Below the pieces are notes generated by a model. That model had not been told where the DNA came from. It did not search any database and saw nothing but the letters and a program-made list of their open reading frames with translations. This document shows, one piece after another, positions 1 to 46,345 of a DNA stretch of 46,345 bases (position 1 is its first letter; every line of letters begins with the position of its first letter). The position numbers and the translations under genes were made by a program. The stretch spans positions 1 through 46,345 of IMG/VR virus record IMGVR_UViG_3300043772_001923; one strand, written 5' to 3'. Origin of the DNA: a virus.

Positions 1-888
1 TCGGTACGTTTCGGTGCGCGTACTGGCGGCGAGTTCTGACAAACTTTCCACCAGTGGCGCGGGCGCGTTCGGGAAGCGCGCCCGCAGCATGTCGCACTCG
101 CGGTCGGGGGGCAAGTACTCCGTCTCGACGTAGACACATCTGTCGGCCAGTGCTGCGTCGATGCCGCCCGTCCCTACGTACTCTGCGCCGACGTTCGCGG
201 TAGCGGCGAACGTCACGCCGTCCGCCATTCGCACTGGTTCGCTGCGCTGCGGGAATTGGATTGCACGGCGCGAATCCATCAGGGGAAGTAGTGCGTTCTG
301 CGCCTCGGTTGCTGCTCGGTTCAGTTCGTCAAGCATGATGACGGCGCGCGGCGTGGCGAGCGCCGCCACCAGTTGCGAGTCCTGCCATGCGACTCGGCCG
401 CGTGAAAGTGTCGCGCTCCCGAACCACTCGGAAGCGTCCCGCACTGGTCCGCAGTCGAGGATAAACAGCGGCCGTCCCTCAGCGGCGGCGGCGTGTTGGA
501 TTGCTTCCGTCTTGCCTGTGCCGCGTGGGCCGATGAGCATGATGGGCGCGCCTGTTGCCATTGCGGCGCGGATGGTCGCGAGCATTCCATCGGGCATGGT
601 GTAGAGCGGGTCGGTCGTGATGGTTTGTGGCTTCCACTGCGCGCGGATGATCGGCGCGGGTCCATTGGCGACTGGCTCGGCGTGGTTGCCGCTCGTGCTC
701 GTGGCGTTGGCGTTCGCGATTGCTTGCGCCAGTGCGGCGCGTGTCTCTTCGTGTTCGGCGTGTGCGCTCGCGAGTTCCCGCCGTGCATCGGCTGCGGTGC
801 TCGCGAGCGCTGGCACCGTTGAAATAAGCGCAGAGAGAATCGGTGAAGACAAGAGAGAATCAAGGGCGGTTTCGGTTGTCGTTTCCAT
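1..888 (-). CDS. MoxR/CobS-type AAA+ ATPase, N-terminal part (gene crosses contig junction)
   Basis: The first 296 residues of an AAA+ ATPase start with ATG at 888 and run off the left edge; the gene continues at the right end of the window (stop at 45834), giving about 362 residues in total. A predicted coiled coil lies near residues 34-66. Walker A GPRGTGKT is at 120-127, Walker B VIMLDELN at 183-190, a sensor-1-like FAATANV near 227-233, and an arginine-finger-like ALADR ends at 250. MoxR/CobS ATPases remodel or load cofactors onto partners together with VWA-domain proteins, and such a VWA gene lies downstream at 43767-44561. An AGGA ribosome-binding site sits 10 bases before the start, in a leader shared with the gene at 43108-43656. 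The family is clear; the substrate is unknown. Confidence 0.9.
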   Translation of the reverse strand, partial: METTTETALDSLLSSPILSALISTVPALASTAADARRELASAHAEHEETRAALAQAIANANATSTSGNHAEPVANGPAPIIRAQWKPQTITTDPLYTMPDGMLATIRAAMATGAPIMLIGPRGTGKTEAIQHAAAAEGRPLFILDCGPVRDASEWFGSATLSRGRVAWQDSQLVAALATPRAVIMLDELNRAATEAQNALLPLMDSRRAIQFPQRSEPVRMADGVTFAATANVGAEYVGTGGIDAALADRCVYVETEYLPPDRECDMLRARFPNAPAPLVESLSELAASTRTETYR

Positions 889-939: not shown

Positions 940-1329
940 TTAGTTCTTGGGGGTGGTCCTTGCCAGTGCTGCGCGGATTGCTGCGATCTCTGCGCGTAGT
1001 GCTGCGCTCGGGTGCTTCGCTTCCTGCGCTTCGAGCATCGGAAGGAACTGCGCGACCGTCTCGCGGACTACCTGCTCGGGCGTTTTCTGCACGGTTTCTC
1101 GTGCTTGGTTCTTCAGTAGGATCGCTGCGAGTTGCGCGCGATACTGCGCCAGTCGGGCGCGCACTGCATTCGTGTAGGCGCTCGGGTGTCGCTCGTTGTC
1201 GATGCACCATTCAAGGTTTCGGATTTGGTTCTTCAGCGCTTTGATTTTCCATTCTGTGGAGCGTTGAAGCGTCTCGAAGTTGATAGCGGCATCTGCGCGC
1301 GCTGCTCGTTGGATCTCTCGTGGTGTCAC
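940..1329 (-). CDS. small Ala/Arg-rich helical protein, paralogue of 1422-1643
   Basis: I place the start at a GTG at 1329, giving 129 residues; AGAGG lies just upstream. The beginning TPREIQRAARAD and the end ALRAEIAAIRAALA match the beginning TPRDIQ and the end LAAIRAEIARTRAAM of the neighbouring 73-residue protein, so the two are likely paralogues. The middle is predicted helical and charged (residues about 20-100). No known domain is recognised. It belongs to the GC-rich minus-strand operon that leads into the MoxR ATPase, 51 bases downstream. A longer reading frame extends to 1494, but that extension is Arg/Pro-rich low-complexity sequence crossing the upstream gene and the leader motif. 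Confidence 0.6.
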   Translation of the reverse strand: MTPREIQRAARADAAINFETLQRSTEWKIKALKNQIRNLEWCIDNERHPSAYTNAVRARLAQYRAQLAAILLKNQARETVQKTPEQVVRETVAQFLPMLEAQEAKHPSAALRAEIAAIRAALARTTPKN

Positions 1330-1355
1330 TGGTGGGCCTCTTGCTGTTGGGTGCG

Positions 1356-1365
1356 TGATAGGTGC
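1356..1365 (-). repeat. TGATAGGTGC leader motif
   Basis: Another copy of the 10-mer, in the gap between the 1422-1643 gene and the GTG start at 1329. On the minus strand it follows GCGCAACGT, a sequence also found before the next copy at 1656. Confidence 0.5.
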
Positions 1366-1421
1366 GCGACGTTGCGCCCCTGCGGCGGAGTGTATCCGCG
1401 TCGGTGTGTCGTGTCTAGGCG

Positions 1422-1643
1422 TCAGCTCGAGGCGAGCGCGCGCATGGCTGCGCGGGTTCTCGCGATCTCTGCGCGGATGGCTGCGAGGTCGCAAGCGGGG
1501 ATACGGTGCGCATCGGGTCCATCGGCGACTCTCTCAAGGGCGGCGAGTCGCTGCGCCAGTCGTGCGCGAGCGATGCGGCGCGCGATGTCGGTGGTATTCG
1601 TCGTGCGCTGGGTACGGGTGTTTTGGATGTCTCGGGGGGTCAT
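1422..1643 (-). CDS. small Arg-rich protein, paralogue of 940-1329
   Basis: This 73-residue protein begins MTPRDIQNTRTQ and ends with the helical stretch IRAEIARTRAAMRAL. Both ends resemble the product of 940-1329, and the two genes share a similar leader (AGGCC followed by ACACCATGAC, or its GTG version), which points to tandem duplication. It is predicted all-helical and strongly basic. It may be the first confident gene of the GC-rich operon. An upstream 30-codon frame starting with a GTG near 1734 ends in a TGA that overlaps this ATG (ATGA), which would allow translational coupling, but that tiny frame is not convincing by itself. Confidence 0.55.
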   Translation of the reverse strand: MTPRDIQNTRTQRTTNTTDIARRIARARLAQRLAALERVADGPDAHRIPACDLAAIRAEIARTRAAMRALASS

Positions 1644-1800: not shown

Positions 1801-2055
1801 TGCGCCTCGGGGTGGGGGTGCATCCCTCGACATGGGCGGGCCTCGCGCGTGCGGGCGCGGGGTGGGTCCGTCCCTCGGCGGGGCGCACTGGCTGCGGCTG
1901 CGCGGGTTGCGGGCGACGGCGACGGCGTGCGGCGGCGGCGGCGGGCTGCGGGTTCTCGGACGGCGGCCGAAGGCTGCGTGTTGACGGGTCGGGCGGTCGC
2001 TCGGATCTGAACCCACGCCGGGGCGTTCAACAAACCAATAATCTAACCCCCTCTC

Positions 2056-2083
2056 TCGACCTCGTTTTGACTTGTGGTAAACT
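2056..2083 (+). promoter_or_regulatory. candidate sigma-70-like promoter, possibly leaderless
   Basis: TCGACC at 2056-2061, a 16-base spacer and TAAACT at 2078-2083 resemble -35 and -10 boxes. The ATG of the first packaging gene follows only 6 bases after the -10 box and has no ribosome-binding site (CTCCTCCC precedes it), so a transcript from here would be leaderless. The -35 match is weak; this is a proposal. Confidence 0.35.
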
Positions 2084-2089
2084 CCTCCC

Positions 2090-2740
2090 ATGCGAGGTTC
2101 ACTTCAACTCAAGGGACAGATCCGGTCATGGGCAGAGTCGATTGGTCGCTGGACTGACTTTGTCAAGATCCGCGAGCGTTTGAAGGCTGACGGCATGGAT
2201 GCTGGTGAGTGTTGGTTGCGTGCTGCACAGGAGATGGACCCTGTTATGTGGGGTCAGGTGCAGTCGAGTGTGAAGCCGAAGCGTGCGGAGAAGAAAAACG
2301 ACCTGCCACGTGGCAGGTCTGTGGAGTCGGATGGTGAGTTGCGTGTGGAGTTGGATGAGTCTGTGGGTGGGAAAGTGGAAGATAAAGTTCCACTTAGTGG
2401 AAGCGAGCCTGCGGGGGATCGCGCGACGAAGGCGGTGTTTGGCGCGAAGAAGGTGTCTACGATCAAGGTGGTGGAGTGGGTGGCGAGTAACTTGCAGGTG
2501 GAGGATGTCGAGCCGAGGGATGCGCCGAGTAGTGAGGCGTGGGGGATGTTGGTGTGGGCGCGCAGGAGTCCGGTGAATGAAAGTCAGTTTTGGGGGACTA
2601 TTTACGCAAAACTGTTGCCTTCGAGGAGTGCTATTGAGGCGGAGCAGCGGTACGCTGATGACGGATCGCGCATTGAGGACACGGCATCACGGTTGCTGGC
2701 GATGCGCGACGCGACTGAGAGTCAACGGGAGGCTCTGTAA
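2090..2740 (+). CDS. putative terminase small subunit / first gene of packaging module
   Basis: A 216-residue hydrophilic protein opens the plus-strand module, five genes before TerL. The first 60 residues (KIRERLKADGMDAGECWLRAAQEM) look like a helical DNA-binding region. A low-complexity acidic/basic linker follows (about 65-125), then a more ordered C-terminal part with VVEWVASNLQVEDVEPRDAPSSEAWGM residues split around 125-150. Small terminase subunits are poorly conserved and usually sit here, so the role is inferred from position; no signature motif proves it. The gene contains a perfect 18-bp palindrome at 2301-2318. Its stop overlaps the next start (TAATG). Confidence 0.55.
   Translation: MRGSLQLKGQIRSWAESIGRWTDFVKIRERLKADGMDAGECWLRAAQEMDPVMWGQVQSSVKPKRAEKKNDLPRGRSVESDGELRVELDESVGGKVEDKVPLSGSEPAGDRATKAVFGAKKVSTIKVVEWVASNLQVEDVEPRDAPSSEAWGMLVWARRSPVNESQFWGTIYAKLLPSRSAIEAEQRYADDGSRIEDTASRLLAMRDATESQREAL
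2301..2318. repeat. 18-bp palindrome ACCTGCCACGTGGCAGGT
   Basis: A perfect inverted repeat inside the first packaging gene. The same arms, ACCTGCCA and TGGCAGGT, recur at 10265, 24372 and (with one changed base) 33762, the last three in intergenic DNA. Confidence 0.6.
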
Positions 2741-7542: not shown

Positions 7543-7547
7543 CTACA

Positions 7548-8384: not shown

Positions 8385-8402
8385 AACAAAAAGGACCAAG
8401 TC

Positions 8403-9470: not shown

Positions 9471-9494
9471 TAGGGCCAGAAAGGCAGTTCAATC

Positions 9495-10438: not shown

Positions 10439-13400
10439 TCAACTTCTCCCGACTCAAAACCTTCGCGGTCAACCAAGATCTTGGCAAGACGGTCATTGAC
10501 TTGCTTCAACCGACGCTGGCGAGTGTCCAAGGTTCGGTCGTCGATCTTACGGTTTACGCGGCGCGACAAGTCGGGCTGCTTCATAATCAACTTCATGTTG
10601 GTTGGAAGCGGTGCTTCTGGGAACATTTGGTTCCAGTACGCAATTTGCTGGCGGGCTTCAACAAGTTTGCCAGATGCAATCAACGATGCGATGTCGTCAA
10701 GGATGTCATCAATCGCCTCCTTCATCGTGATGACCTTGAGGTATTCAAGGCTTTCGAGCGATTCACGGACACTTCGCAAGCCCATCACGGCGCGAATTTG
10801 CTCTGCGGTTGTACGGCGGAATTGCAGACGGCCTTGCTTGTCGTACTTATCAAACTCCTTGTTGATGAGGTCAATCCCAGTAGTGAGTTGCTGGAATGCC
10901 GGAGAAGACGAAACGATGCCTTGGACAAACTCATCAAAGTTGCTTTGATAAATAGCGTTCTTGTCGGTCATAGACGTGTACACGTCACCAACAGCAGAAA
11001 GCGTCGGTCCGGCAAGGAAGCCACCAATCATGTCATACACGGTTCGTCCGTATGGCTTGGGGAACAAGACAATCGAACCAGAGATGTCAACGCCAGCGGC
11101 GGCGGGTAGGCCGAAGACAACGACGTTGGCAGCGTTTTCGCCCAACTGCTCGCGAAGGTCTTGGTAGATATCCCATCCCGTTGCATTTTCATCATCCGAG
11201 AAGATGCGGGCAATTGCATCAAGCAGGATGAATACTGGCAACCCCTTCAAACCGCCCATGACAAGGAACGATGTAATCCAACGAACCTTTGGAGCAAGTC
11301 GAGCGGTTCGGTCAGTAAGTTCTCCTGTGCGCGGATCTCGTTCGTTGAAGATGTTGTGCGCCAAGCCGAACGAAGACACCATGAATCGCTTGTACTGCAA
11401 CAGCGTTGCACGGGTTGGCCCACGGAATGCAACTGGGTTATTTGCCTTTGAGAAGGAAAACTGGGTTTGCGCAACACGCAGCAATGCATGTTTTGCTGCC
11501 ATGTCTTCTGGCATGCCCAATTCTTCGGTGGCATACGTGTAGAAAGCAAAGAACGTGAAGTTCTGATTCCGGCTTTCCGGGCCGGAAATTGGAGACTTCT
11601 CTATGATTCGCTTGATGTTGTCGTAAGCCTTTCCGAACCAGCCGGTACCTGGTCCAAGTCTAAATTCCCGACCTTCGTACCATTCTCCGCTTGGTCGAAG
11701 ATATCCGTACTTGGCGAAAACAGCCTTTGCTTCCTTGCTGTTGTACCGAGCGATGTACTTCAAGAATCGGCGTGTACCAATAATTGGGAACACCGTCTGG
11801 AATGGCTGAAGCGAGTTGACGAACTGCTGGCGAATTGTCCAGAGTTGTCGCATCACGTTGACTGTGCGAACCATTTGAAGCAATCGGCGCGTCGGCATTG
11901 GGCCGATGTAAGTGCGCATAATTGGGATGCTGGCAAAAAGCGAGTCCATCAACTGCTCAAACTGGCTTTGCCTAAACGTAGTCATGTAGTCAAGCGTGTC
12001 CTGCAAGTGAGCAGACCAGCCGACATAGCCCTGACGCTTGAGATCTTCAATAGAAGATGTCACATCCTTGCGCAGACGGTTGAAGTAAAGCCACTTGTAG
12101 TAGCCAGATGTCTGTGCTTGCCATACGCGCATGAAGTCAATGTCAAAGCCTTCCTTGCCCTTGCGCTCAAGGATGGAAGCATAGAAACGTTTTTTGCCTT
12201 CGTTGCGCCCGATCTTTCCGCGAAGCATGGCGCTGACGACATCAGATTCGATATCTGCTGCTTCTTCAATTTGTCGCCGCAGCATGTCGTACTGTTTGCC
12301 GCTGAGTCGAACAACGTCTGGCGGGACATGCGTTTGGATCTTGATTTCCAATTGCATGATGTTGTCTTTGTTGATGCCAGGCGGTGGAGACTTCTTGAAC
12401 TGGCGCATACGACGAACCATTGCTGCCTGCGTTGATTCTGTAGCGGTTCCGCCGTCCATGCTGATGGAACGCTTGGCAATGCGCATCGCCTCTGCTTCGC
12501 TCTTTTCTTCAGCGATTGCCGCTTCGTATGCGGCCTTGTCGTACCAAACGCCTTCGTACGCTCCAAAGAATGCGTGGAAAATGTGCGAGAACTGGCGACC
12601 CCAGTCGTCTGGAACCATGACAAGAACAAGCGATTCGCGCGCTTCTTCAAGCGACATGTACTCGCCACTGTCTTCGTCAAGAATCATTTTGACTACATCG
12701 CGCTTGGCAGGTCCAAAGCGCACTTCTTCAACTTTCCAGTTTGACCCGTTCTCTTGGGCAGTCTTTGCAATACGGGCAATTGGCATGAATGACACGATCT
12801 CTCGCGCTGCGGCTCGTTTTTCCGCAATGATGCCCAACCGCTGTTGCTCGCCAATCTTTTTGAATTCGCGAAGCACATTGATTACGTCGTCAGTAAGACG
12901 TGCTCCAGATTCATCAACCCATTGTGGGTGGGCGTTGTCAAGGTTTGGATCGTAGTAGCGATCCATCAGTTTGAAGAACTCAGCGCCGTTGTTTGCACGA
13001 TACTTCTTTGGAAGTGCGGCGTACAAATCCTTGCCCTTCGCAACCATGCCTTCTGTAACACGCATTCTTTCGAGGTCTGTCGAAACAAGTGCTTCGGCAA
13101 CACGACGAACTGATGGGATTCCTGAAGACCATGCGGAATTCAGCAGTGGGATAAACCAGCGCTTGAATACGCCAATGTCCCCTTCTTTTTTGCCGCCGGT
13201 AATCTTGATGCCCTTTGGATTGCCAAACCATTCTCCAATGGTGTCAAGGATTTTTCCCTTGACTCCAGATGCTTCGGCTTCTGCTGGCAGCGGAATGTCT
13301 TGAGAATCAATGAATTCAATTTGCTGCTGGCTTTGCAAGTCTGGGTTGTACTCAACATTAGAAACACCCAACTCTTCGCCAACAGATTCAAGTGCCAAAT

Positions 13401-16400
13401 CATAAGTACCGCCATCTCCGTCGTTTGGGAATGTGCGGTCAACAGCAATGATGTGCGCTTGTTGCACATCTTCTGGAACTACTTCTTCGGCAATTCTGCG
13501 GACATCTTGGCTGGCGGGTCCGTTGGCATCGACGTAATCCGCAAGTTCTGGGTCTGTGAATCGTCCTGAGAGTCCAATTCCTTCTGCAACGACACCAGAA
13601 AGCGATCTTGCGTTGACGGTTGTGCCGCTGCGGTAATCAGTGAACGCAGCCACTCCTTGTGTGTCATTGAAAACTCCTTCTGCTCCAAAGGTGATTGACT
13701 CTACCGCGTACGGAACACCCTTCGCGATAATTCCAAGTCGGTCCAGTTCTGACAAGGTTTGGAGCAAAGCCTTGTTTCTAATTGTGATGATTGCGTCGTC
13801 AGTAGGTGATTCTTGCTCGTTGCGGTGGGCGTTGGCTCGAACTGCTGGATCTGCTTCCGCAACGTAGTGAATACGCATGCCAAACGACTGCCGAGTTTTT
13901 CCGTCTGCTCCGGTATCGGCGCGACCATCGTTTTCGATTTCGATATCCCACGTTGGGTTGGCCAACTCAATTTGAGCAGCAATTGCGGTGGCTTCTTCAA
14001 TGGTCAGATTGGATGGGAAACGAATGATGTATCCCGGACGTGCATTTGGCGAGCGAGCAGCGCCGTATGGAACAGTTTGATTTACGGTTACACGGAGCGC
14101 AGTCTTGCTTTCCGACACCATGTCAGAAATCTTGGCAGCAAATCCGTTTGAATCAAAGTTTCGGTAGCGAACGACAAGGCTGACATTGGTTGTCCGTCTG
14201 TTTGTTCGTGGGTTTGATTCGTAACGAACCGACAAAACACTCTTGTCATTGTCAGTTAGTTGCGAAATGCGCTCAATGAACTCACCAACTGGCATCACTG
14301 AGTCGGAATCAAACTCAGCGGTCAAGAGAGTCAATGGATCGCGATCAAAAGCGCGCTCAAAAGATCCAGCAGATCCTTGCGCGGTAGTCCAACCGTTCTT
14401 GCTCCATGTGTTCTTCAATGAGAACCACATCAAAGCCTGCAAGTTTTTTGCAGAGATTGGCATAATCCCGTTTGCTGTAATTTCAGCAGCAGCGCTTTCA
14501 AAAATCTGTTGCGCAAACCCGTATTCGCCAGTGATGTCATCAATGTTTCCGTCGCGAACTTTTCCGCTTACACCGACTTCGGCATAAGCAGGGATTCGTG
14601 GAAGGCCCATAGATTCTCGGACACCGCGCGCAGCCCACAGATCAATGGTCGCATTGGTACTTCGTCCCATGAGGTTGGCGAAGAATGTATGTACCTTTGG
14701 ACTTTGGACATTCTTTGCCCAGATACCGGCCATGACGCGCATAGCCGACATTGAATTAACGCCAAATTTTGGATGTACTGCAACGGTAGCGCCTTCAAGA
14801 AGATTCCCAGCATCGTCAAATGCTTGTGGATTTTCTTCAATGACGGATCTCCTGAAATCTCGAAGAGCCACGTAATACTCAGGCTCTGCCATTTGGTCTT
14901 TCTTTGGTCCGTATCGCTTGACCAAGTCATCCATGTTCCTAAATGGCTTAGCAGCAGGTGTAATCAAATTGCCAGAAGAATCCTCATATGGATCTACTGG
15001 GAAGTTTTCTCCCTGCGCGACATAAACCATTCGGCCGATTGTCTTGCCTCTGTAAACAGATCGGTCTGAGACATCAATCTTCAGAGATTTGATAAGAGGA
15101 TCTGTGTCTTCCGGGATGTTGTTGTTTTTGAGATAAGCACGTCGCGATTCAATGCGATCTTGAAGCAACGAAATTTCTTTAATGCGCTTTGAGTCGGAAA
15201 CCCAGTCGATGTATTCGCTGAGTGCGTCGTCGTAATCTCCGCGAATGAACGCTTCAATTGCATCAATTGCATACGCATAGTTCATGTCTGCTGGCGTCTG
15301 CGGAGACAGCGCGGCAAGCAGTTCAGTGAACAACATTTGCTGGTTTCCAAAAGACGTAGCAAGACGTTCAAAGATTGCGTCGTACCAAGCCTGCTCTTTG
15401 ATAATCAATTGAGCATCTTGATCCCCGTTGCTTGCGCGTGTTACGAGGTCAGAAACGTGGTCAACAAACCACTTCTTTGACTTGGCAAGAAGGGCAGCCT
15501 TGCGCCGATGCTCTTTGGCAACCGCTGCTTTCTTTTCATCGGCGCTCAATCCGGTCGTGCTGATCTTTTCGCCTTCAAGACCCCAAGATATTGTCTTTGT
15601 CTTGATGCTGATATTTCCATTACTAGAAATGCCAATGGAAACAATTGGCGGAATAGCCCAGCCGACATCGCTTCCAGCAGACTTCTTGTTGTCAACGATG
15701 TGCCGCGAAACCATTTCGCCATAGATGACGCGCAGCAAAAACTCCATCGTGTTTGCTACGTCACCAGTAGCCTTTGACTGCTTGATGAAGTCTTCAATTG
15801 CGCGCTCGCTTTCTTGTGGGAGTTTCCCCTCGTAAGAAAGCGCATCGCGAAGCGCACCACCCTTGATCTTCATTGCAGAACTTGCAACGGCAGCAAAAGC
15901 CTTTTTGCCAGAAGTGCTCATTGACTTGTATGAGGAAGATGACTGCACTTCCGTCATATCAACGGACAATGTTGCGGTCTTTTCTTCTGCATTCTTGAGC
16001 GACTTGTAGTTCTTCTCAAACCATTTCTTCTCGCTGATACGACGAGATCCGCTTGCAATTGCTTTTGCAAGTCCATCCTTGATGGTGCTCAAAGCAATGG
16101 AATATTCCTTTGCCAAGGAAACTCCGACAAGTTGCAGCGATTTGCCACCAAATTTTTTCCTTGGCAGTTGTCGAGGCTCTGCGCGATGAGTGATTTGAGT
16201 ATTGTCAAACTCGTTTGCCGAAAAATCGCTTGCATCAAATTGGAGAGGTTCATCAAATGGTCTAGTTGTCCAGAAAAGGCGTTCGCCAGATACCGTGCGA
16301 GTCAAGTGCGTAATAGCCATAGGCCGCAGTTTTTGACTGGCCTTTCGAATCAGTTCTGGCACTTGATTTAGTTTGGATGGGTCAATCTCAGCAAGACCAA

Positions 16401-19400
16401 GTCCAATTCCGGTATCCATAAAGCCAAACCACTTTGGGTTTAGCGCTTCTGCGAAAATCCGCGTAATTTCTGATACTGCGTGATAGAGGTTTTGCGCTGG
16501 GCCAATTTCTTTTGGCACATAAGAAGCAACGCTGATGTTTGAAGTGACATCTGGATAGACCAGTGCAAGAACTTCACGTACCGTTGGGTCTTTTTCAATT
16601 GCCGCATTTTTTGCTGCGGACAATGGCACGTAGTCATCAAACAGCGCGCGGATCTGGTCAAAAGAGTATTTATTGCGGTAAATGTTTCCGGTTGCTGCCA
16701 GAATTGTTCTTTGAATGTTTCTTGCAAGCATGAAAACCGTTTTGGCAAACCAACTGTAGCCAGCGCGTTTTGCTTCTGGAGTTTTTGCAACGCTTTCAAT
16801 GTCTTGCAAAATCAGTTCAAGTTCACGCGGATCGGACATGATTGCGTGAGAGATCTTTGCCGCAATGCGGACAATGATTTCCTCATTGCGGTTCCCCTTT
16901 TGATAATTAGAGAGACTTGAAGCCATTCGCTCTACGATTGCGTCATACAACTCTGGAGCAGCGTCGCGAAGTTCTTTCACAAGCGCCGCTTCTGCTTCAC
17001 GCCGACCGCTTTGACCGATTCTGTCAAACAGGATTTGATGCCACGCTTCATGCAAAATTGTGTCAATGAAGCCAATTTTTTGCTTGCCTTCACGACGACC
17101 TTTGGCGTTTTCAATATCAACAAGAATCAATGGGTACGTGACGTAAAACTCTCCTTCGCCAAGTGGTTCTGTCGCCTCTTTATCTGAAATTACAAATGAA
17201 TCACCAGAACTTTGGACGCGAAGATTTACTGTTGACCACGACGCTGATCCGTGTGTTCCCTTTTTGCCAGTTCTGGCAACAACGATTGATCCAATCCGGT
17301 TAGCAAAAGCAATTGGATTTTCTGAACTGCTAAATCCAAGCGATTTCATTGCTGGATCGTCTTTAGACAAAAAGCGAAGATTGATGCCGCTTCGGTTTGG
17401 TCTTTGACCATGCGCAGTAAATGTTCCCGAGCCTGTCCATGACATAAAGTGAGAAGGATTCTTTGCGCCAGATCCAATCTTTCCTGCAAGATATTCTTGG
17501 GCAAGATTTGCAAGTGTCCCATCGGTAATTTTGGGATTTGCTTTTGGAGAAATGGTGGTCCTGTTTGTAGTTCCTGGGTTAAGATTTGTAACAACAACTC
17601 GCGTCCTATTTTGTTTACGCGGAGAAGTGGCTTTTTCTTCGCCCAACTCTGAAATTTCTACTCCGCCGAGTTTTGGATAATTTCCTGGGAATCTTTCTGC
17701 TTGCGCATTCATGCGGATTGCAAGTTCATGGCGAGCATCAGAAATAATTGGCAGAACAGGAGTTTCTGGCTCAACCGGTTTAGTACCAATTACAAACGGT
17801 GATACGTCCGGCGGGAGTTGGTCAATCACATAGTCATATCCGCCACCAGTTGATTGGCGAATTGCTCCAAGACTTACGAGAATTCGCACCCCAACCGGGC
17901 TAACACCAATGAGATGAGGAGCAAAAACGCGGCCTTGCTCCATGCGTCGCAACTGTTCAATCTCAACATCGGTAAGTTCTGTCCTATTCTGCTCTCCAGC
18001 AATGTTGCGAAGCAGGTGAATGATGCTGATTCCAGCAGCCTTTGCTTCTCGGTGAAGATTGACGCCAGAAAACTTCTTCGCTGGTTCTTCTTCGATTCCG
18101 GGAAGACCCTCAACGCTTACATTCTTTCTACGTCGAGGCGTTGGTGCTGGCTCAGCAGTTGGTGTAGGTGCTGGTGCTGGTTCAGGTGCTGGTGCCGTAG
18201 GTGCGGGAGTTGCCTCTGGTTCAACAGCAGGAGTAGGCTCTGTTACTGGAGCAGGGGCTGGTTCAGCAGTTGGCGTAGGTGCTGGTGTCGGTTCTGGTGC
18301 TGGTGTTGGTGTTGGCTCAGGCGCTGGTGACGCAGGTGCGGGCGCTGGTGCCGCCTTGGTCTTGCTAATTGTTTCGCGAGACTTCAGTGCCTTCCACTGC
18401 TCAAGAAGTTTGACGCGAGATTCAGCAGACATTGGACGGCCGTCAGTAAGTGCCGTTTCCAATTTCCCCAATGATTCGCGTTCTCTTGTTGAAAGAGGCT
18501 TTCCGGTCGTGTCTGGAGTTACTGCCGGAAGAGGGAATTCAGGCTCGTAAGGCTTTGTTGCGCCAAGACGCTTTGTAAGTGCGTCAATTTCCTTCTGGAG
18601 TCGAGCCTTTTCTTTATCTGTCGTTCCAGGGTCAAAGAAAGCGCGCTTCTTGACTTCAAGCACGCGCTTTTCATATGGACTCAACGGCTTCAAAGCCTCT
18701 GGAGTTGGTTCCGGCTCAGGAGTTGGTTCCGGCTTTGGAGTCGGAGCGGGTTTTGCTACTCCTTCGCGGGCCTTCAACTTTGAGTATTCGTCTTCCAACT
18801 GCAAACGAGTTTCAGGCTTCATCGGCCGACCATCGGTCAGCATTTCTTCAATGCGCTTGAGTCGGACCTTCTGCTGCTCCAAAAGAGGCTTGCCAGTCGG
18901 GTCTGGAGTGACCGTTGGCAACGCAGGAGCCGTCCAAGTCTTTGCGCTCTTCTTTCTACGCTCAAGAAGATCAACTTCTTCTTGCAGGCGCTTCTTGTCT
19001 TTTTCTGTAGTACGAGGATCTACAAGAGCCTTCTTCTTGTTCTCAAGCAGCGTGGTCCGCTCGTATGGGCTAAGAGGATCAAGATCTGCGTCTTTGACAG
19101 CAACGATCTTTCGAACAACTAGATCTCGCCGCTCCCGCAAAAGATCAAGCAGTTCTTTGCCGGTTGGATTTTTAGCAATAGCAGCGTCAATCTCTGCAAG
19201 GCGTGCTTCTTCTTTGGTGTCAAGCGGCTTGATGCCCTTTGCAGACTCAATCAGGCCCGCGCTTGCTCCAACCTTGACAAGCGCTTCAGCAAAAGCATTT
19301 CGCTTTGCAGGATCGGACAAAATTCCCTGCATTTCAGCAAGGGCTTTTGGATCTGTGAAGATGCGCGAAAGGTTTTCTTGGGTAAACGAAAGCCCTGGCG

Positions 19401-21459
19401 TTGAAAGCAAGATGCGAATGGCGGCTTGGTTCTTGCCGACAAGTTTTGAAATCTCAGCCTCATCGCCCGAAGCAACCTTCTTGAAATCGACTCCTGTGTT
19501 GTCGATATCAATTGGTTTTCGAGTCTTGCGGTCAATAAGCGCTGGGCCTTTTTCAATTACAGAAATGCCAGGCTTGGTTTCTTTGACTGGTGCTGCCGCT
19601 GTTGGTTTTGCTGGTTCGGCCGGAGTTGTTACTGCATTAGCGGGAACCGGAAGGCCACGGCGCTTCAGTTCATTGATTGCATCTTGCGGGCGGACAGGAA
19701 GATTGGTTGGTCCTGCGCTTGTTTCGACAGCAGTCGTATCGCGTACATCTTCGCCACGCGCAGCACGATTGAGTTGATCTTGGGAAAGATCCGCAGGGTT
19801 GCCTGGGACAAATGAACCCTTGGAAGCAAGACCGCTTTCAAAAGCCTTCCATGCCAAGTCTCGGTCTTTTTGCTCAAGCGTGTACTTTCGAAGATCAAGT
19901 GCTTGAACAACCTTGCCGCCAATAGCGCCAGCGCCAGCGCCGCCAGCAAAGTTTGCAAGAGCCTGTGTCCATGCGTCTTGGTCTAGAGCAACAAGTTGCT
20001 TGAGAAGAAGTTCGCGCTTTTTGTAGTCGCCGCCAGCAAGATCCCATGCAAGCACTTGAGCCATATTTCCCAAGGCGTCTTCAGACAACTCTTGGAAGCC
20101 TTCTGCAAATGCGCCGCTTGCAACCTTTTTGATGACGTACGGGCTTGCGCTCAACTTCTTTGCCGAAGCGGCAACAGATGCTTTTGCCAGAGTATTTGCT
20201 ACATCAAGCGATCTGCCGCCAAGAAGCGCGTAGCCGGGAATTGCGTTTACTACAGAAGATGTTGCTCCGTAAAGTGTCGCATCGACAGCCGCGTATGCGC
20301 GAGCGCCTTCTGGGTCAACGCCCATTTGCAATGCTTCAAGGTATGCCTGGTTGTATGCAGATCCTGCGGCCTGTGCGCCAGCGCTACCAATGAACATCGG
20401 GATTGCTCCCGTTCCACCAGTAACAACAGCAAGGGCAAGAGATGCTGCGAATTGGCCTACGCCGTCGCCAATGGCATTGAGCATGATGGCTGTTTGATCT
20501 TTCGATCCAACCATTGCCTGCTTGGCGATTTCAAGAACACCGGATGCGTTGTTGAAAAATGTAGATGTTGCTTCTCCAGTAGTTCCCTGCTGGAATCCAA
20601 ATACATCTTCAGACCAGAACTCAAGACCAGTTCCAAGAAGCGACGCAAATCCGCTGATTGCTTGCAGAGAAGAAAGCGCTCCTGCGGGAACACTGTTGAG
20701 AAGCGCTCGACCAACGCCTGCGCCTCCAGTTCGTTCTGTTTCAATTGCCCGCTCTTCAAGTTTGCGGCCAATCCATGCGCCCCATTCGGAGTTCTTGAGC
20801 GCCTTTTCTTGCTCGACTCGGCGTTGAATGTTCTTGCCAAGGTCGAGCATGGCAAGATTGGCTCGTTCTTCTTGCGAATACGACTCTTCGTTTCGTACGC
20901 GCAACGGGCCTTCGGAAGAAAAATCAACTCCGCCTTCGGTTGCAGTTTGCAACCTAAACGCATCTGGCTGATTACGAATATCGCGTCGTGCCTCAAAGCG
21001 CTTTAGGAAACCAATGTCCCCTTCTTGCGGCTTCATCCCAGGCTGGAATCCAAACTGGGAATAAAACTCGTCTGGATTGGCTGCCGGATCAATTCGAGTT
21101 TCTGGGATCACATTAGACGCATTGCGAACCCAAGAATCAAAGTTGACGCTCTTGGTCGTTCCGCCAGTTTTGTATTTTTCATCTCCAGGTTCAGGACGAT
21201 AAATGCCCTGCGAGCGCTCCAACTTGCGCGTGGCTTCTTCATCACGCGCCGCCATCGCTTCGGTATTGGCTTGTTCAAATTGGCGTTGCGCTTCTTCTGG
21301 GTTGAACCCAGTTGCAGTCGGGTCAGTAGACATCTCTGCTGCCGATTGAAGGCGCTGCCCAATAGACGCGCGAGGAGCAACTTGATCCAGCATTGGCTCC
21401 GCTGGTGCGAGAAGCGGACGGCCGGTAAGCGGATCTACGTTGCTGTTGATAGTGCTCAT
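10435..21459 (-). CDS. giant 3674-residue virion-type polyvalent protein with metallopeptidase motif
   Basis: An AGGA site lies 8 bases before the ATG. Segments in order: polar N-terminus; hydrophobic/amphipathic region about 330-500 with AFAEGFQELSEDALGN; two tandem repeats of about 110 residues (about 790-905 and 920-1030); a Pro/Ala/Thr/Glu spacer about 1036-1111; a zinc-peptidase-like LHEAWHQI near 1469; a region about 2340 with NLQALMWFSLKNTW; a C-terminal hydrophobic part about 3390-3500 containing NVVVFGLPAAAGVDISGS. This resembles the large polyvalent proteins of phages, thought to be packaged and ejected into the host with several effector domains. Whether it is an internal virion protein is inferred. 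No T7/N4-type RNA polymerase motif or lysozyme motif is evident. Confidence 0.8.
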   Translation of the reverse strand: MSTINSNVDPLTGRPLLAPAEPMLDQVAPRASIGQRLQSAAEMSTDPTATGFNPEEAQRQFEQANTEAMAARDEEATRKLERSQGIYRPEPGDEKYKTGGTTKSVNFDSWVRNASNVIPETRIDPAANPDEFYSQFGFQPGMKPQEGDIGFLKRFEARRDIRNQPDAFRLQTATEGGVDFSSEGPLRVRNEESYSQEERANLAMLDLGKNIQRRVEQEKALKNSEWGAWIGRKLEERAIETERTGGAGVGRALLNSVPAGALSSLQAISGFASLLGTGLEFWSEDVFGFQQGTTGEATSTFFNNASGVLEIAKQAMVGSKDQTAIMLNAIGDGVGQFAASLALAVVTGGTGAIPMFIGSAGAQAAGSAYNQAYLEALQMGVDPEGARAYAAVDATLYGATSSVVNAIPGYALLGGRSLDVANTLAKASVAASAKKLSASPYVIKKVASGAFAEGFQELSEDALGNMAQVLAWDLAGGDYKKRELLLKQLVALDQDAWTQALANFAGGAGAGAIGGKVVQALDLRKYTLEQKDRDLAWKAFESGLASKGSFVPGNPADLSQDQLNRAARGEDVRDTTAVETSAGPTNLPVRPQDAINELKRRGLPVPANAVTTPAEPAKPTAAAPVKETKPGISVIEKGPALIDRKTRKPIDIDNTGVDFKKVASGDEAEISKLVGKNQAAIRILLSTPGLSFTQENLSRIFTDPKALAEMQGILSDPAKRNAFAEALVKVGASAGLIESAKGIKPLDTKEEARLAEIDAAIAKNPTGKELLDLLRERRDLVVRKIVAVKDADLDPLSPYERTTLLENKKKALVDPRTTEKDKKRLQEEVDLLERRKKSAKTWTAPALPTVTPDPTGKPLLEQQKVRLKRIEEMLTDGRPMKPETRLQLEDEYSKLKAREGVAKPAPTPKPEPTPEPEPTPEALKPLSPYEKRVLEVKKRAFFDPGTTDKEKARLQKEIDALTKRLGATKPYEPEFPLPAVTPDTTGKPLSTRERESLGKLETALTDGRPMSAESRVKLLEQWKALKSRETISKTKAAPAPAPASPAPEPTPTPAPEPTPAPTPTAEPAPAPVTEPTPAVEPEATPAPTAPAPEPAPAPTPTAEPAPTPRRRKNVSVEGLPGIEEEPAKKFSGVNLHREAKAAGISIIHLLRNIAGEQNRTELTDVEIEQLRRMEQGRVFAPHLIGVSPVGVRILVSLGAIRQSTGGGYDYVIDQLPPDVSPFVIGTKPVEPETPVLPIISDARHELAIRMNAQAERFPGNYPKLGGVEISELGEEKATSPRKQNRTRVVVTNLNPGTTNRTTISPKANPKITDGTLANLAQEYLAGKIGSGAKNPSHFMSWTGSGTFTAHGQRPNRSGINLRFLSKDDPAMKSLGFSSSENPIAFANRIGSIVVARTGKKGTHGSASWSTVNLRVQSSGDSFVISDKEATEPLGEGEFYVTYPLILVDIENAKGRREGKQKIGFIDTILHEAWHQILFDRIGQSGRREAEAALVKELRDAAPELYDAIVERMASSLSNYQKGNRNEEIIVRIAAKISHAIMSDPRELELILQDIESVAKTPEAKRAGYSWFAKTVFMLARNIQRTILAATGNIYRNKYSFDQIRALFDDYVPLSAAKNAAIEKDPTVREVLALVYPDVTSNISVASYVPKEIGPAQNLYHAVSEITRIFAEALNPKWFGFMDTGIGLGLAEIDPSKLNQVPELIRKASQKLRPMAITHLTRTVSGERLFWTTRPFDEPLQFDASDFSANEFDNTQITHRAEPRQLPRKKFGGKSLQLVGVSLAKEYSIALSTIKDGLAKAIASGSRRISEKKWFEKNYKSLKNAEEKTATLSVDMTEVQSSSSYKSMSTSGKKAFAAVASSAMKIKGGALRDALSYEGKLPQESERAIEDFIKQSKATGDVANTMEFLLRVIYGEMVSRHIVDNKKSAGSDVGWAIPPIVSIGISSNGNISIKTKTISWGLEGEKISTTGLSADEKKAAVAKEHRRKAALLAKSKKWFVDHVSDLVTRASNGDQDAQLIIKEQAWYDAIFERLATSFGNQQMLFTELLAALSPQTPADMNYAYAIDAIEAFIRGDYDDALSEYIDWVSDSKRIKEISLLQDRIESRRAYLKNNNIPEDTDPLIKSLKIDVSDRSVYRGKTIGRMVYVAQGENFPVDPYEDSSGNLITPAAKPFRNMDDLVKRYGPKKDQMAEPEYYVALRDFRRSVIEENPQAFDDAGNLLEGATVAVHPKFGVNSMSAMRVMAGIWAKNVQSPKVHTFFANLMGRSTNATIDLWAARGVRESMGLPRIPAYAEVGVSGKVRDGNIDDITGEYGFAQQIFESAAAEITANGIMPISAKNLQALMWFSLKNTWSKNGWTTAQGSAGSFERAFDRDPLTLLTAEFDSDSVMPVGEFIERISQLTDNDKSVLSVRYESNPRTNRRTTNVSLVVRYRNFDSNGFAAKISDMVSESKTALRVTVNQTVPYGAARSPNARPGYIIRFPSNLTIEEATAIAAQIELANPTWDIEIENDGRADTGADGKTRQSFGMRIHYVAEADPAVRANAHRNEQESPTDDAIITIRNKALLQTLSELDRLGIIAKGVPYAVESITFGAEGVFNDTQGVAAFTDYRSGTTVNARSLSGVVAEGIGLSGRFTDPELADYVDANGPASQDVRRIAEEVVPEDVQQAHIIAVDRTFPNDGDGGTYDLALESVGEELGVSNVEYNPDLQSQQQIEFIDSQDIPLPAEAEASGVKGKILDTIGEWFGNPKGIKITGGKKEGDIGVFKRWFIPLLNSAWSSGIPSVRRVAEALVSTDLERMRVTEGMVAKGKDLYAALPKKYRANNGAEFFKLMDRYYDPNLDNAHPQWVDESGARLTDDVINVLREFKKIGEQQRLGIIAEKRAAAREIVSFMPIARIAKTAQENGSNWKVEEVRFGPAKRDVVKMILDEDSGEYMSLEEARESLVLVMVPDDWGRQFSHIFHAFFGAYEGVWYDKAAYEAAIAEEKSEAEAMRIAKRSISMDGGTATESTQAAMVRRMRQFKKSPPPGINKDNIMQLEIKIQTHVPPDVVRLSGKQYDMLRRQIEEAADIESDVVSAMLRGKIGRNEGKKRFYASILERKGKEGFDIDFMRVWQAQTSGYYKWLYFNRLRKDVTSSIEDLKRQGYVGWSAHLQDTLDYMTTFRQSQFEQLMDSLFASIPIMRTYIGPMPTRRLLQMVRTVNVMRQLWTIRQQFVNSLQPFQTVFPIIGTRRFLKYIARYNSKEAKAVFAKYGYLRPSGEWYEGREFRLGPGTGWFGKAYDNIKRIIEKSPISGPESRNQNFTFFAFYTYATEELGMPEDMAAKHALLRVAQTQFSFSKANNPVAFRGPTRATLLQYKRFMVSSFGLAHNIFNERDPRTGELTDRTARLAPKVRWITSFLVMGGLKGLPVFILLDAIARIFSDDENATGWDIYQDLREQLGENAANVVVFGLPAAAGVDISGSIVLFPKPYGRTVYDMIGGFLAGPTLSAVGDVYTSMTDKNAIYQSNFDEFVQGIVSSSPAFQQLTTGIDLINKEFDKYDKQGRLQFRRTTAEQIRAVMGLRSVRESLESLEYLKVITMKEAIDDILDDIASLIASGKLVEARQQIAYWNQMFPEAPLPTNMKLIMKQPDLSRRVNRKIDDRTLDTRQRRLKQVNDRLAKILVDREGFESGEVE
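18125..18350 (-). repeat. Pro/Ala/Thr/Glu-rich spacer-encoding DNA
   Basis: A short-period imperfect repeat inside the giant gene encodes units such as PAPEPTPAPTPTAEPAP over about 75 residues. It probably forms an extended linker between the tandem repeats and the metallopeptidase part. Repeats of this kind can vary in length between strains. Confidence 0.8.
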
Positions 21460-42737: not shown

Positions 42738-42920
42738 GGTCCGATATCCGCTCGGCCGTGTCTGGTCCGATATCCGCTCGGCCGTGTCTGGTCCGATATC
42801 CGCTCGGCCGTGTCTGGTCCGATATCCGCTCGGCCGTGTCTGGTCCGATATCCGCTCGGCCGTGTCTGGTCCGATATCCGCTCGGCCGCGTCTGGTCCGA
42901 TATCTAGCGGTTTGGTGTCT
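42738..42920. repeat. tandem 26-bp repeat array (iteron-like)
   Basis: Six full copies start at 42738, 42764, 42790, 42816, 42842 and 42868, and a degenerate seventh at 42894; a partial eighth follows at 42921. Each unit begins GGTCCGATATCCGC and continues TCGGCCGTGTCT, so contains GATATC and CGGCCG. Copies 1-5 are identical and copy 6 has a single T-to-C change. There are no unique spacers. Repeated binding sites of this type mark replication origins (iterons), partition sites or decoys. Confidence 0.9.
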
Positions 42921-42938
42921 GGTCCGCTTCGCCAACGA

Positions 42939-42967
42939 GAAACGCCCGCGACGGGCGCGGGCGTTTC
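42939..42967 (-). terminator. terminator-like hairpin of GC-rich module
   Basis: A perfect 12-bp stem (GAAACGCCCGCG with CGCGGGCGTTTC) with a 5-base loop. It lies about 30 bases beyond the stop of the last GC-rich gene. The T-tract is short (GTTTCTC), so termination may be partial or the hairpin may protect RNA ends. Confidence 0.65.
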
Positions 42968-42994
42968 GTTCGGGGTTCGTGGCTGGGCGGGGGG

Positions 42995-43111
42995 TCAGTC
43001 GGGCGGGCGGCGGCGGCGGTCGCGTGTCACGTATGCGACCAGTTCCGACGCAATCAGCGCGAACAATGCAACGCCAACCGCGACGGCTGCGGCATCGGCG
43101 GCGGTGCTCAT
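42995..43111 (-). CDS. 38-residue single-helix membrane peptide
   Basis: A tiny frame, MSTAADAAAVAVGVALFALI, then ASELVAYVTRDRRRRPPD, in an ATGA overlap with the gene upstream. Residues about 8-28 form one membrane helix followed by a strongly basic tail, which predicts a cytoplasmic C-terminus. As the last gene of the MoxR-VWA module it may anchor or link the system to the membrane; this is inference from position. Confidence 0.6.
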   Translation of the reverse strand: MSTAADAAAVAVGVALFALIASELVAYVTRDRRRRPPD

Positions 43112-43656
43112 TTCATCATTTCCCGCGCGTAGACGGCGAACGAAACGCGCGCGAGCGCGTGCGCGAGTGTTTCGGTTTCGTCGTCGGACATTGCGTCAAT
43201 GAGGAGAGAACACCCTGCCACCAGTGCGGCGCGCTCGGCGCTTGCGAGGGCTAAATCTGCGGCCGTCCGCATGCTCGCGGCGAGGGTTTCGGCGCGCTCG
43301 TCGTTCGCGCTCGCGACGTTGTCGAATGTCCTCGCGAATTCCGCAGGGAGGGCGCGGTGGTTGCGGTTCGCGACCATTGAAGCCGCCGCGCTTGTGAGCA
43401 CGTAGGCGAAGCGGGCGAGGACCACGCCCGCCACGGTGGTGGCGGTGTCGATGTCGACGGCGGCGGCGCGCGTCCCGTCTTGCTCTAGGATCTTCGCCAC
43501 CTCTGCGCGTTCGATCAGTGCGCCAAACTCGACGGCGCGCGCGCGCTCGTCGGCCGTGGCGACGGTTGCCCATGCGTGACCTGTCAAACGGTCGATGCCG
43601 TGCGCTCTCAAGTAGGGCGCGACTCCGTGCGGGGTTGGTTGGTTGTCGGTTTCCAT
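43108..43656 (-). CDS. helical Ala-rich protein of the MoxR-VWA module, 182 aa
   Basis: From ATG 43656 the protein starts METDNQPTPHGVAPYLRAHG and continues with long Ala-rich helices (VVLARFAYVLTSAAASMVAN; MRTAADLALASAERAALVAG). The leader AGGAAC, CGTACAACATGGAAAC is nearly the same as that of the MoxR gene, which indicates shared origin or regulation. No known domain is recognised. It follows the VWA gene by 110 bases and overlaps the membrane peptide gene. Confidence 0.65.
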   Translation of the reverse strand: METDNQPTPHGVAPYLRAHGIDRLTGHAWATVATADERARAVEFGALIERAEVAKILEQDGTRAAAVDIDTATTVAGVVLARFAYVLTSAAASMVANRNHRALPAEFARTFDNVASANDERAETLAASMRTAADLALASAERAALVAGCSLLIDAMSDDETETLAHALARVSFAVYAREMMK

Positions 43657-43766
43657 GTTGTACGGTGTTCCTTTGCTGCGGTCTCTTCCTGCGTTCGTTG
43701 CAACGTGCAACGGGCGCGGCGGGCGCGGCGTGGTGGCATTCCACGCCGCGCGGCGCTGTGCTCGTC

Positions 43767-44561
43767 TTACTGGCGCGCGTTTGCGATTGCGCGGACTAGT
43801 GCGCGCGTGATTGCTGCGGGCTGAATTGCTTCATGTACTCTCTGCGCGCCCCACTCTTCACGGGCGCGGTCGATGTCTTCGCATCGGTTGCCAAGGTACA
43901 GATAGACGAACTCCGCGCCTACTCTGCGGCACGTGGCGAGGGCTGCACCTGCTGCGCGCGCGTGGTCTGCGGGCGCGTCGTTTGGGAGTCCGTCCGCGAT
44001 CAGTGCGAATATGGTGCGCTCTGCGGGCATCCTCGCGACTGATAGTAGGCCCGCGACGGCGTACGCGTCACGGTTGCCGCCTCCCAGTTCTCCCGCGTTC
44101 GCGATTACGTCGCGCGTATTCTCGTACGTGTTTAGTCGCACGGTTGGCCCTGTCGCGTCGTGGTGCGCAATGCCCACGGGTACGCTGCATTGCGCGCATC
44201 CGCGCGCCAGTCCTGCGGCGACTGCTGCGGCGATTTGATGCCGTGGGCGGCGGAGGATTTGCCCGCTGTCCATGCTCCCGCTGTCGTCGATCAGTAGCAC
44301 GAGGCCCACGGGCGGACGCGCGCCCGCCTTCGCATGCTCCCGCCTTCCGAATACTCGCGCCGATGGCAACTCGACGCGCGCCGCCAGTGTGCGCGTGTCG
44401 ATTCGTGTACCTCGTTCGCGGTTCCATTCGTGCGCGATTCCGCCGACGCGGCGAAGGGCGGCGAGGGTGGCCGTGTAAGTCTGTTCCTCTACTTTGCGCG
44501 CTTCCTGTGTGAGAATTTCGCGCGGTGTGTGATCGGGGATGGTGTGAATAGTGCGCTTCAC
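43767..44561 (-). CDS. CobT-like von Willebrand factor A (VWA) domain protein
   Basis: A 264-residue protein from a GTG at 44561 overlapping the upstream stop (GTGA), with GAGG before it. After a helical N-terminus, the VWA fold begins at PVGLVLLIDDSGSMDSGQI; DDSGSM at 92-97 supplies the D-x-S-x-S MIDAS. Later come GGGNRDAYAVAGLLSVAR (second metal-site region) and TIFALIADGLPNDAPADHA (third Asp), as in CobT-type VWA proteins. Such proteins partner with MoxR/CobS ATPases, and that gene is two genes upstream. No cobaltochelatase CobN is present, so cobalamin synthesis is unlikely. Confidence 0.85.
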   Translation of the reverse strand: MKRTIHTIPDHTPREILTQEARKVEEQTYTATLAALRRVGGIAHEWNRERGTRIDTRTLAARVELPSARVFGRREHAKAGARPPVGLVLLIDDSGSMDSGQILRRPRHQIAAAVAAGLARGCAQCSVPVGIAHHDATGPTVRLNTYENTRDVIANAGELGGGNRDAYAVAGLLSVARMPAERTIFALIADGLPNDAPADHARAAGAALATCRRVGAEFVYLYLGNRCEDIDRAREEWGAQRVHEAIQPAAITRALVRAIANARQ

Positions 44562-45814
44562 TTGTTGCCCTCGTGCTTTCGTCGGAACGGAGTGACCACT
44601 ACAGACGCTTCCCCTTTGCCGTCTCGCATTATCGCGTACGTCTGCACTGCTCCGTTTTTGGTTTTGTGTTCCTGCATCTCGCACTGCATCGGCGGGCGGT
44701 TCTGTGGCACAATCTGCCGCCGTCCGCGCTCGTCGACTGGGGCCGACGATGTAGGCGCGTGAATTGCCTCGGCTGCTGCGTCGATTGCGTCGGCCGCGTG
44801 ATCCTCGTTTCGTCCTGCCTTGTTTGCGCGCGCGTCCTTGTGGGTGGGGGCGTCCTGCTCCACTTCCTCGAATTGCTCGCGCTCGTGCTCGGGCGTTCGC
44901 TCCTCTTCGTCGATCTCTCGGCTACGTTGTTCGCGGTACGCCGCCTCCAGTGCTTCGCGCGCGCGGGTTTGTTTGTTGGTGTCGGCGGATAGGTTGCCGT
45001 ATTCCTGCTCATCGTGCGCAGTATTCCGCGCGTCTTCGTCCTCTTCGTTTCGGTCGTTCGTCGTTGCGAATTCCGCGAACGCGCGCGCGCCGTCTGCATC
45101 GTCTCCGTTGTCAACGCATGCGAGCGCGTACGCTGCGAGCGCCGCGCCTAGTGCATCGGTTCCGATGGTTGCGCCGTCTTTGCTGCACTGGTCGCGCACC
45201 GTCTGCGGCGAGCGAAGCGCCGCGATACGCGCGCGCCGTGCTCGCTCCAACGGTGCGAGGGTTGAATCCTCGGCCTCTGCGAGCCACTGTGACGCGAGGA
45301 AGTCAAGCGCCTTTTTTGATAGTGCGACCTGCCACGGGCGAAGGTCCGCGCGTTCGGTGGTCGCTCGCGCGTCCATGCGGTAACTTTTCGCAAGTGTTGC
45401 CGCGTTTGTCGCTTGTGGTAGCGGGTTCCACGTTCGGCCGTAGCCGTGCTCACTGGGTACGCCGTGAATGAATCCGCTACCTACGTCCCCGCTCTTCACT
45501 GCTCCTGCGAGCATTCCGAACGCGGCGACTAGGTCGGACGCGCGGTCAAGTTCCGCCGTATCCATCGCTGCCGCCTGTACTGGTCCCGTTGGGAGGTATA
45601 GCGTCGGGGTTTTGCTCCCGCCGATTCCGCCTCGGTCGTTCGTGGCTGCTGTATAGGTCGCATTCGAGCATAGGCGAAGGGCCACGGTTAGCGCGAAGCG
45701 CGCGCGCGCGCCTTCGTCGCGAGGCCACGCGCGCGCCCCGTACCATCCTCCGCCCAGTGCGCGCGCTTTGCCCGTGTAGGTGTTTCGTGTTGTGTCGTTC
45801 GTCTTGTATCTCAT
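44558..45814 (-). CDS. MoxR-VWA module middle protein with acidic coiled region, 418 aa
   Basis: From ATG 45814 the N-terminal 200 residues (MRYKTNDTTRNTYTGKARAL, LGGGWYGARAWPRDEGARAR) look globular. The third quarter is very acidic and helical (NDRNEEDEDARNTAHDEQEY; REIDEEERTPEHEREQFEEV), similar in style to the acidic insert between the N-terminal and VWA parts of CobT. The C-terminus is short and basic. It lies between the ATPase and VWA genes and overlaps the latter (GTGA), so it may be the split N-terminal half of a CobT-like subunit. AAAGGAG lies 11 bases before the start. Confidence 0.65.
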   Translation of the reverse strand: MRYKTNDTTRNTYTGKARALGGGWYGARAWPRDEGARARFALTVALRLCSNATYTAATNDRGGIGGSKTPTLYLPTGPVQAAAMDTAELDRASDLVAAFGMLAGAVKSGDVGSGFIHGVPSEHGYGRTWNPLPQATNAATLAKSYRMDARATTERADLRPWQVALSKKALDFLASQWLAEAEDSTLAPLERARRARIAALRSPQTVRDQCSKDGATIGTDALGAALAAYALACVDNGDDADGARAFAEFATTNDRNEEDEDARNTAHDEQEYGNLSADTNKQTRAREALEAAYREQRSREIDEEERTPEHEREQFEEVEQDAPTHKDARANKAGRNEDHAADAIDAAAEAIHAPTSSAPVDERGRRQIVPQNRPPMQCEMQEHKTKNGAVQTYAIMRDGKGEASVVVTPFRRKHEGNK

Positions 45815-45833
45815 GGCTGGGTACGCTCCTTTT

Positions 45834-46345
45834 TCAGACAAGGCGAAGTTTCGCGGCGGTTGCGGCGCACGTTGCGCGCGGTGATGATGCGCCGATGTTC
45901 TCCATCGGTGCGAGAAGGGCGCGCACTGTGAGCGCGCGCGCATCGTCGGCGCTCGTGATAGGTGCAAGCGCCTGATACATTCGGAGGGCCTGAATCAGTG
46001 CGCGGGTGCTGATTGCTGCGCCGCCTGTCGCGTCTCGGTACGTTTCGGTGCGCGTACTGGCGGCGAGTTCTGACAAACTTTCCACCAGTGGCGCGGGCGC
46101 GTTCGGGAAGCGCGCCCGCAGCATGTCGCACTCCCGATCGGGTGGGAGGTATTCAGTCTCGACGTAAACGCATCGGTCTGCGAGGGCGGCATCGATTCCG
46201 CCCGTCCCGACGTATTCCGCGCCGACGTTCGCGGTAGCGGCGAACGTCACGCCGTCCGCCATTCGCACTGGTTCGCTGCGCTGCGGGAATTGGATTGCAC
46301 GGCGCGAATCCATCAGGGGAAGTAGTGCGTTCTGCGCCTCGGTTG
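45834..46345 (-). CDS. MoxR/CobS-type AAA+ ATPase, C-terminal part (gene crosses contig junction)
   Basis: This frame enters from the right edge and ends at 45834; it repeats the MDSRRAIQFPQRSEPVRMAD to TETYR part found at 1-311 and adds the C-terminal lid DATGGAAISTRALIQALRMY, QALAPITSADDARALTVRAL. Across the 311 shared bases the protein is identical, although 19 bases differ. Joining both ends gives one protein of about 362 residues. The TGATAGGTGC motif also occurs here at 45956, inside the coding sequence. Confidence 0.9.
   Translation of the reverse strand, partial: TEAQNALLPLMDSRRAIQFPQRSEPVRMADGVTFAATANVGAEYVGTGGIDAALADRCVYVETEYLPPDRECDMLRARFPNAPAPLVESLSELAASTRTETYRDATGGAAISTRALIQALRMYQALAPITSADDARALTVRALLAPMENIGASSPRATCAATAAKLRLV

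Follow-up and report, generated by a model that had tools for sequence, protein, structure and literature searches.

Known MoxR-VWA pairs

Among machines that pair a MoxR ATPase with a VWA protein, the best studied is NorQ-NorD, which inserts iron into nitric oxide reductase. NorD, the VWA partner, has a finger in the AAA+ pore and its MIDAS directed at the target, and owes specificity and leverage to its N-terminal domain and linker; the complex is proposed to work by twisting the linker between the target-binding part and the VWA domain (PMC9976466; PMC13036017). Viral cobST pairs have been described in cyanophages, Gordonia phage Woes, Microcystis phage Mae-Yong1326-1 and haloarchaeal viruses, with one split cobT reported, that of HHTV-2 (PMC8651126). 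Pairs of the CobST or MoxR-VWA kind are widespread in phages, and B12 supply and virion assembly have been proposed as their roles (PMC8651126; PMC7824862; PMC7911831). Here we analyzed the 46,345-base virus record IMGVR_UViG_3300043772_001923, referred to in its entirety as the window. Its genes for an ATPase, a middle protein (MID), a VWA protein and a helical protein (HEL) probably encode an AAA+ motor of the MoxR class and a VWA adaptor made in two pieces.

An ATPase gene across the record ends

The two ends of the record overlap by 311 bp at 94% identity (19 mismatches), and the genome is thus circular or circularly permuted, with a length of about 46,034 bp. The ATPase gene (362 aa) spans this join, running from 888 to 1 and then from 46034 to 45834 (Table 1). 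The initial annotation had placed an ATPase within 42995-46345. Walker A and Walker B are indeed present, along with an AAA_5 match, but the first 296 codons and both Walker motifs lie at 888 to 1. The overlap copies differ in 18 codons of the ATPase frame (19 differences), and all 18 are synonymous, a direct sign that selection maintains this frame. An 85-base patch (100-184 versus 46134-46218) holds all 19 differences, and the remainder of the two copies is identical. The patch points to a local exchange of sequence with a divergent relative, perhaps through the phage-encoded Bet-type annealing protein.

Table 1. Features of the ATPase-MID-VWA-HEL locus and its surroundings (window coordinates).
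Feature	Coordinates	Strand	Description	Basis or remark
ATPase, N-terminal part	1..888	-	N-terminal 296 codons, ATG at 888; Walker A GPRGTGKT, Walker B VIMLDEL	relatives, 44-47% identity
S1	940..1374	-	small helical protein preceding the ATPase; doubtful member	absent from relatives
S2	1422..1643	-	small protein, possible partial S1 paralogue; doubtful member	comparison with S1
Conserved element	2007..2125	.	where the module and terminase operons diverge	about 80% identity in many relatives
TM peptide	42995..43111	-	38 aa, one predicted hydrophobic helix, ATGA overlap with HEL stop; doubtful member	no counterpart detected in L029
HEL	43108..43656	-	182 aa, Ala-rich, helical; ATG after AAAGGAACACC	counterpart in L029
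VWA adaptor	43767..44561	-	264 aa; MIDAS IDDSGSM, GGN-DA, DG-PN; CobT/NorD-like segment before the domain	profile, alignment
MID	44558..45814	-	418 aa; N-terminal part helical, another part acidic and linker-like	no family match, HExxH lacking
ATPase, C-terminal end	45834..46034	-	base 46034 joins base 1	terminal overlap
Terminal overlap	46035..46345	.	second version of bases 1-311	mismatches confined to 100-184, all synonymous

The ATPase exceeds the Pfam AAA_5 cut-off (64.6 bits versus 22), and the Walker A pattern G-x-x-G-T-G-K-T and the DE of Walker B are invariant across four genomes. Together with the MIDAS protein encoded in the same operon, the AAA_5 score bears out the earlier family call of a MoxR/CobS-type ATPase with a VWA partner. 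The protein matches PHROG 249 (E 7e-31), which is labelled porphyrin biosynthesis. With a profile built from four ATPase sequences, the nearest solved sequences were, in order, midasin, NorQ (81 bits), CbbQ (75 and 66) and CobS (53). Against the CobS equivalog model TIGR01650 the ATPase scores far below the cut-off (11.9 bits versus 558.55), and it is also far under the cut-off for GvpN and under that for bpMoxR of the MoxR-vWA-beta-propeller ternary systems (21.9 bits versus 27).

MID and VWA, a probable two-gene adaptor

The VWA protein carries the D-x-S-x-S MIDAS that the initial annotation had noted, and residues D92, S94, S96 and D190 are invariant in three genomes. The middle Thr of the MIDAS is replaced by Asn (GGN-D), likewise in the Woes and BS162P1 proteins. 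VWA falls under every Pfam cut-off (VWA_CoxE, 23.0 versus 26.4; CobT_C, PF11775, 16 versus 21 bits), whereas the phage CobT proteins of Woes and BS162P1 pass that of CobT_C. The VWA profile nevertheless matches the phage CobT VWA (probability 98, E 8e-14) over 202 columns that include the conserved segment before the domain. The structural model is weak (pLDDT 51), with Rea1-MIDAS (Z 10.9), NorD VWA (Z 10.8) and MDN1-MIDAS (Z 10.2) as its top folds and other VWA domains tying within 1 Z; plain Foldseek returned nothing at E ≤0.001, the best match being MDN1-MIDAS at 1.2e-3. The profile match and the low-confidence model together establish the predicted VWA domain. A search with the VWA protein across phages, viral contigs and 84,980 prokaryote genomes gave matches only in L023 and L029.

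MID, the acidic middle protein of this minus-strand operon already recognized in the first reading, has no match in Pfam, PHROGs, NCBIfam, PADLOC or PDB. No relation to the phage CobT N-terminus was detectable, and HExxH is absent; the phage CobT/metallopeptidase-VWA trait, an HExxH-containing N-terminal region fused to a VWA domain, is not found in MID or VWA. The MID model is of low confidence (pLDDT 45) and too poor for structure search. The MID and VWA families each consist of three full sequences.

MID and VWA are separate genes in three genomes (the window, L023 and L029). In the window the GTG start of VWA overlaps the MID stop (GTGA). In both relatives the VWA start is an ATG, preceded by about 32-35 bases of spacer that include AAGGA. 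The window and L023 have a VWA frame that reaches into MID, and in L029 a stop shortly upstream closes it. The closed frame in L029 and the ribosome site ahead of the VWA ATG in both relatives argue against a sequencing error as the origin of the split and make a frameshift fusion unlikely; a programmed MID-VWA frameshift was rejected on these grounds. The helical part, the acidic part, the conserved segment and the VWA domain form the CobT/NorD architecture divided in two.

Extent of the module and neighboring elements

HEL recurs once, at the same place in L029 (score 100 versus a shuffled mean of 35.5, sd 6.3; 0/500 shuffles). The single-helix peptide that was listed beside it is present too, but has no detectable counterpart in the relatives. 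The two genes at 940-1643, described initially as small paralogues, are minus-strand genes as stated, but their kinship is weak (3/500 shuffles reach the S1-S2 score; in addition there is a 39-nt repeat of 82% identity), and neither has a detectable counterpart in the relatives. In place of a five- or seven-gene module, the comparison supports ATPase-MID-VWA-HEL. A 183-aa protein with a helix-turn-helix-like end follows the HEL counterpart in L029 (4265-4816) and was not found in the window.

Copies of GCACCTATCA precede the starts of S2, S1 and the ATPase (906-915, 1356-1365, 1656-1665 and 1783-1792, minus strand), and the whole window has seven matches at no more than one mismatch against 1.9 expected. 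In L029 one CACCTATCA copy (5566) is found near where the HEL counterpart starts. At the end of the island, 42738-42904 contains six near-perfect copies of the 26-bp unit GGTCCGATATCCGCTCGGCCGTGTCT, none of which was found in L029. The conserved element at 2007-2125 overlaps the first bases of the plus-strand gene at 2090 and had no Rfam match; it is a candidate packaging site or two-way promoter.

Distribution among related phages

A terminase search recovered 39 related viral loci. We defined an inner clade by terminase identity of at least 77% (six records, including the window) and took records at 56-62% as outgroups (G008, G010, G012 and G017). The ATPase, of the PHROG 249 family, was found in all six inner-clade records that reach the locus and in none of the four outgroup records. 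The gene order ATPase-MID-VWA-HEL recurs in L029 and ATPase-MID-VWA in L023; in L025 and G007 ATPase-MID runs to where the contig ends, and the ATPase is present in L027. Identity to the relatives is 44-47% for the ATPase, 40-42% for VWA and 30-31% for MID. The MID fragment of G007 draws its support from L029 (score 64, 0/500 shuffles), direct comparison with the window giving none (32/500). Relatives that keep the ATPase with unrelated genes in place of MID and VWA, which the initial annotation had held against a single system, were not encountered, as MID and VWA stay wherever the contig reaches.

Both ATPase and VWA are absent from the four outgroup records, whose contigs are incomplete, so that the absence is less firm for G008 and G012. 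In G010 and G017 the whole stretch from the exonuclease to the terminase operon is present, with other genes inside. The outgroups keep terminase and portal, the MCP is present in G008, G017 and G012, and long ORFs occur at the giant-protein position (2672 aa in G008, 3675 aa in G012 and at least 2173 aa), those of G008 and G012 having 25-33% identity. Given presence in six of six inner-clade and zero of four outgroup records, and the retention by the outgroups of terminase, portal and, where reached, capsid and giant protein, we conclude that the module is a clade-level accessory device and not core virion machinery.

Several further observations concern this region and its relatives. Two outgroup loci have related genes (FGKGxPGSxGLSFA...CSKRCPHYG) in the module's place (L038:6118-6891 and L052:6695-7462). 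The giant protein of the window is encoded by a single 3674-aa frame (10435-21459, minus strand), with library matches only for its C-terminal part and a DUF7178-like stretch, and its counterparts in relatives range from 2672 to at least 4028 aa. The interval that separates the recombination genes from the terminase operon (42900-46345 and 1-2000) is GC-rich (64-67% versus 51%), as are L029 at 4000-9600 (65-72% versus 54%) and, at the same place, about 26-30 kb of G010. Recent foreign acquisition was rejected as the full cause of the high GC, since L029 has the same contrast at 45% protein identity and G010 is GC-rich with different genes. A host search with the terminase against prokaryote genomes gave no match.

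Proposed mechanism and alternative roles

By analogy, the module most likely works like NorQ-NorD, with a VWA finger in the pore and the MIDAS and MID gripping the target. The ATPase would form a hexamer, as deduced from NorQ-NorD and CbbQ-CbbO, and its pore would receive, as the finger, roughly residues 40-83 of the VWA protein, a segment that precedes the domain and aligns with the conserved phage CobT segment. The MIDAS metal would bind an acidic residue on the target, MID would stand in for the N-terminal domain plus linker of NorD/CobT and give a target-specific grip, and ATP hydrolysis would then twist or pull the target. One point against a NorQ-like model is that the NorQ contact motif GRxLL/IxxxxT of the helix-2 insert (PMC13036017) is not kept in the ATPase, where by eye the G and one L align.

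The distribution suggests that the target would be non-essential to the virion and useful in the hosts of one clade. Because presence of the module varies between clades and terminase and portal (like capsid and giant protein on contigs that extend to them) are constant, a host target is favored over a virion target; a complex of host proteins that is remodelled in the course of infection is the most likely candidate. A further point against a NorD-like scheme is that an adaptor made as two proteins has no covalent linker to stretch, the action proposed for NorD. More tentatively, MID may be a new, separate recognition subunit with HEL as a fourth part, force being applied between two polypeptides instead of through a covalent linker, and a host complex being dismantled or switched when phages of this clade infect.

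A role in defence or counter-defence had also been suggested in the initial annotation; such a device could act in superinfection exclusion or in removal of a host defence complex. The locus is a variable, GC-rich accessory region with other genes in outgroups, and MoxR-VWA ternary systems have been described among conflict systems (PMC7159879). However, nothing in the searches points there: PADLOC gave generic P-loop matches only, none of them meaningful, no effector or toxin domain was found, and the bpMoxR score is under its cut-off. We consider such a role doubtful.

The virion-protein target named at the outset fares somewhat worse. A chaperone for assembly or maturation of a structural protein, for example the giant protein, would resemble ATV p618 (MoxR) and p892 (VWA), which act in tail development (PMC4124505), and the same role has been proposed for jumbo-phage pairs (PMC7824862). 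The outgroups count against this role, since they have terminase, portal, capsid and giant protein but no module; the module moreover lies outside the structural operon, and we regard the role as improbable.

Equally improbable is a cobalamin helper, in which the CobS/CobT-like pair and a host CobN would insert cobalt and raise the B12 supply of the infected cell: the PHROG 249 label, the match of VWA to phage CobT VWA and the role proposed for viral cobST (PMC8651126) favor it, but the ATPase and VWA miss the CobS and CobT_C cut-offs, the ATPase is nearer to NorQ and CbbQ than to CobS, MID is unrelated to the phage CobT N-terminus, and neither CobN (though a host CobN is possible) nor the large ribonucleotide reductase subunit was found in the phage or two relatives, in agreement with the cobaltochelatase absence reported earlier. 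The automatic "porphyrin/cobalamin biosynthesis" label is thus without support in what we read as a clade-level accessory phage chaperone, probably acting on a host complex.

Comparison with known systems

The rubisco activase CbbQ-CbbO is likewise a MoxR/VWA pair, with CbbQ among the nearest solved sequences, but no rubisco gene was noticed among the genes scanned. The N-terminal part of the CbbQ-CbbO system probably differs from that of the phage module. ATV p618/p892 also pairs a viral MoxR ATPase and a VWA protein, whose interaction has been shown; unlike the phage proteins, these are large proteins of an archaeal virus that function in tail development, p618 being a virion component (PMC4124505).

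In viral cobST, as here, a CobS-like ATPase adjoins a CobT-like VWA protein, and the cobT of HHTV-2 is also split. However, the aligned examples have a single CobT of about 560-650 aa, several with an N-terminal HExxH, whereas MID has neither HExxH nor similarity to the CobT N-terminus.

In NorQ-NorD, as in the phage module, a MoxR ATPase has a VWA partner with MIDAS, and an N-terminal domain without homologues leads through a linker to the VWA domain. The solved sequences nearest to the phage ATPase include NorQ, and the top folds for the VWA model include the VWA domain of NorD. NorQ-NorD differs in that GRxLL is not kept in the phage, no nitric oxide reductase was noticed among the genes scanned, and the VWA domain and putative N-terminal part are two proteins in the phage. 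Judged from sequence comparison, what appears new here is a MID unrelated to the phage CobT N-terminus, a consistent two-polypeptide adaptor and its restriction to one clade. With the chain divided between two genes, the linker-twist model of NorQD, the best-studied MoxR/VWA machine, becomes testable in this phage.
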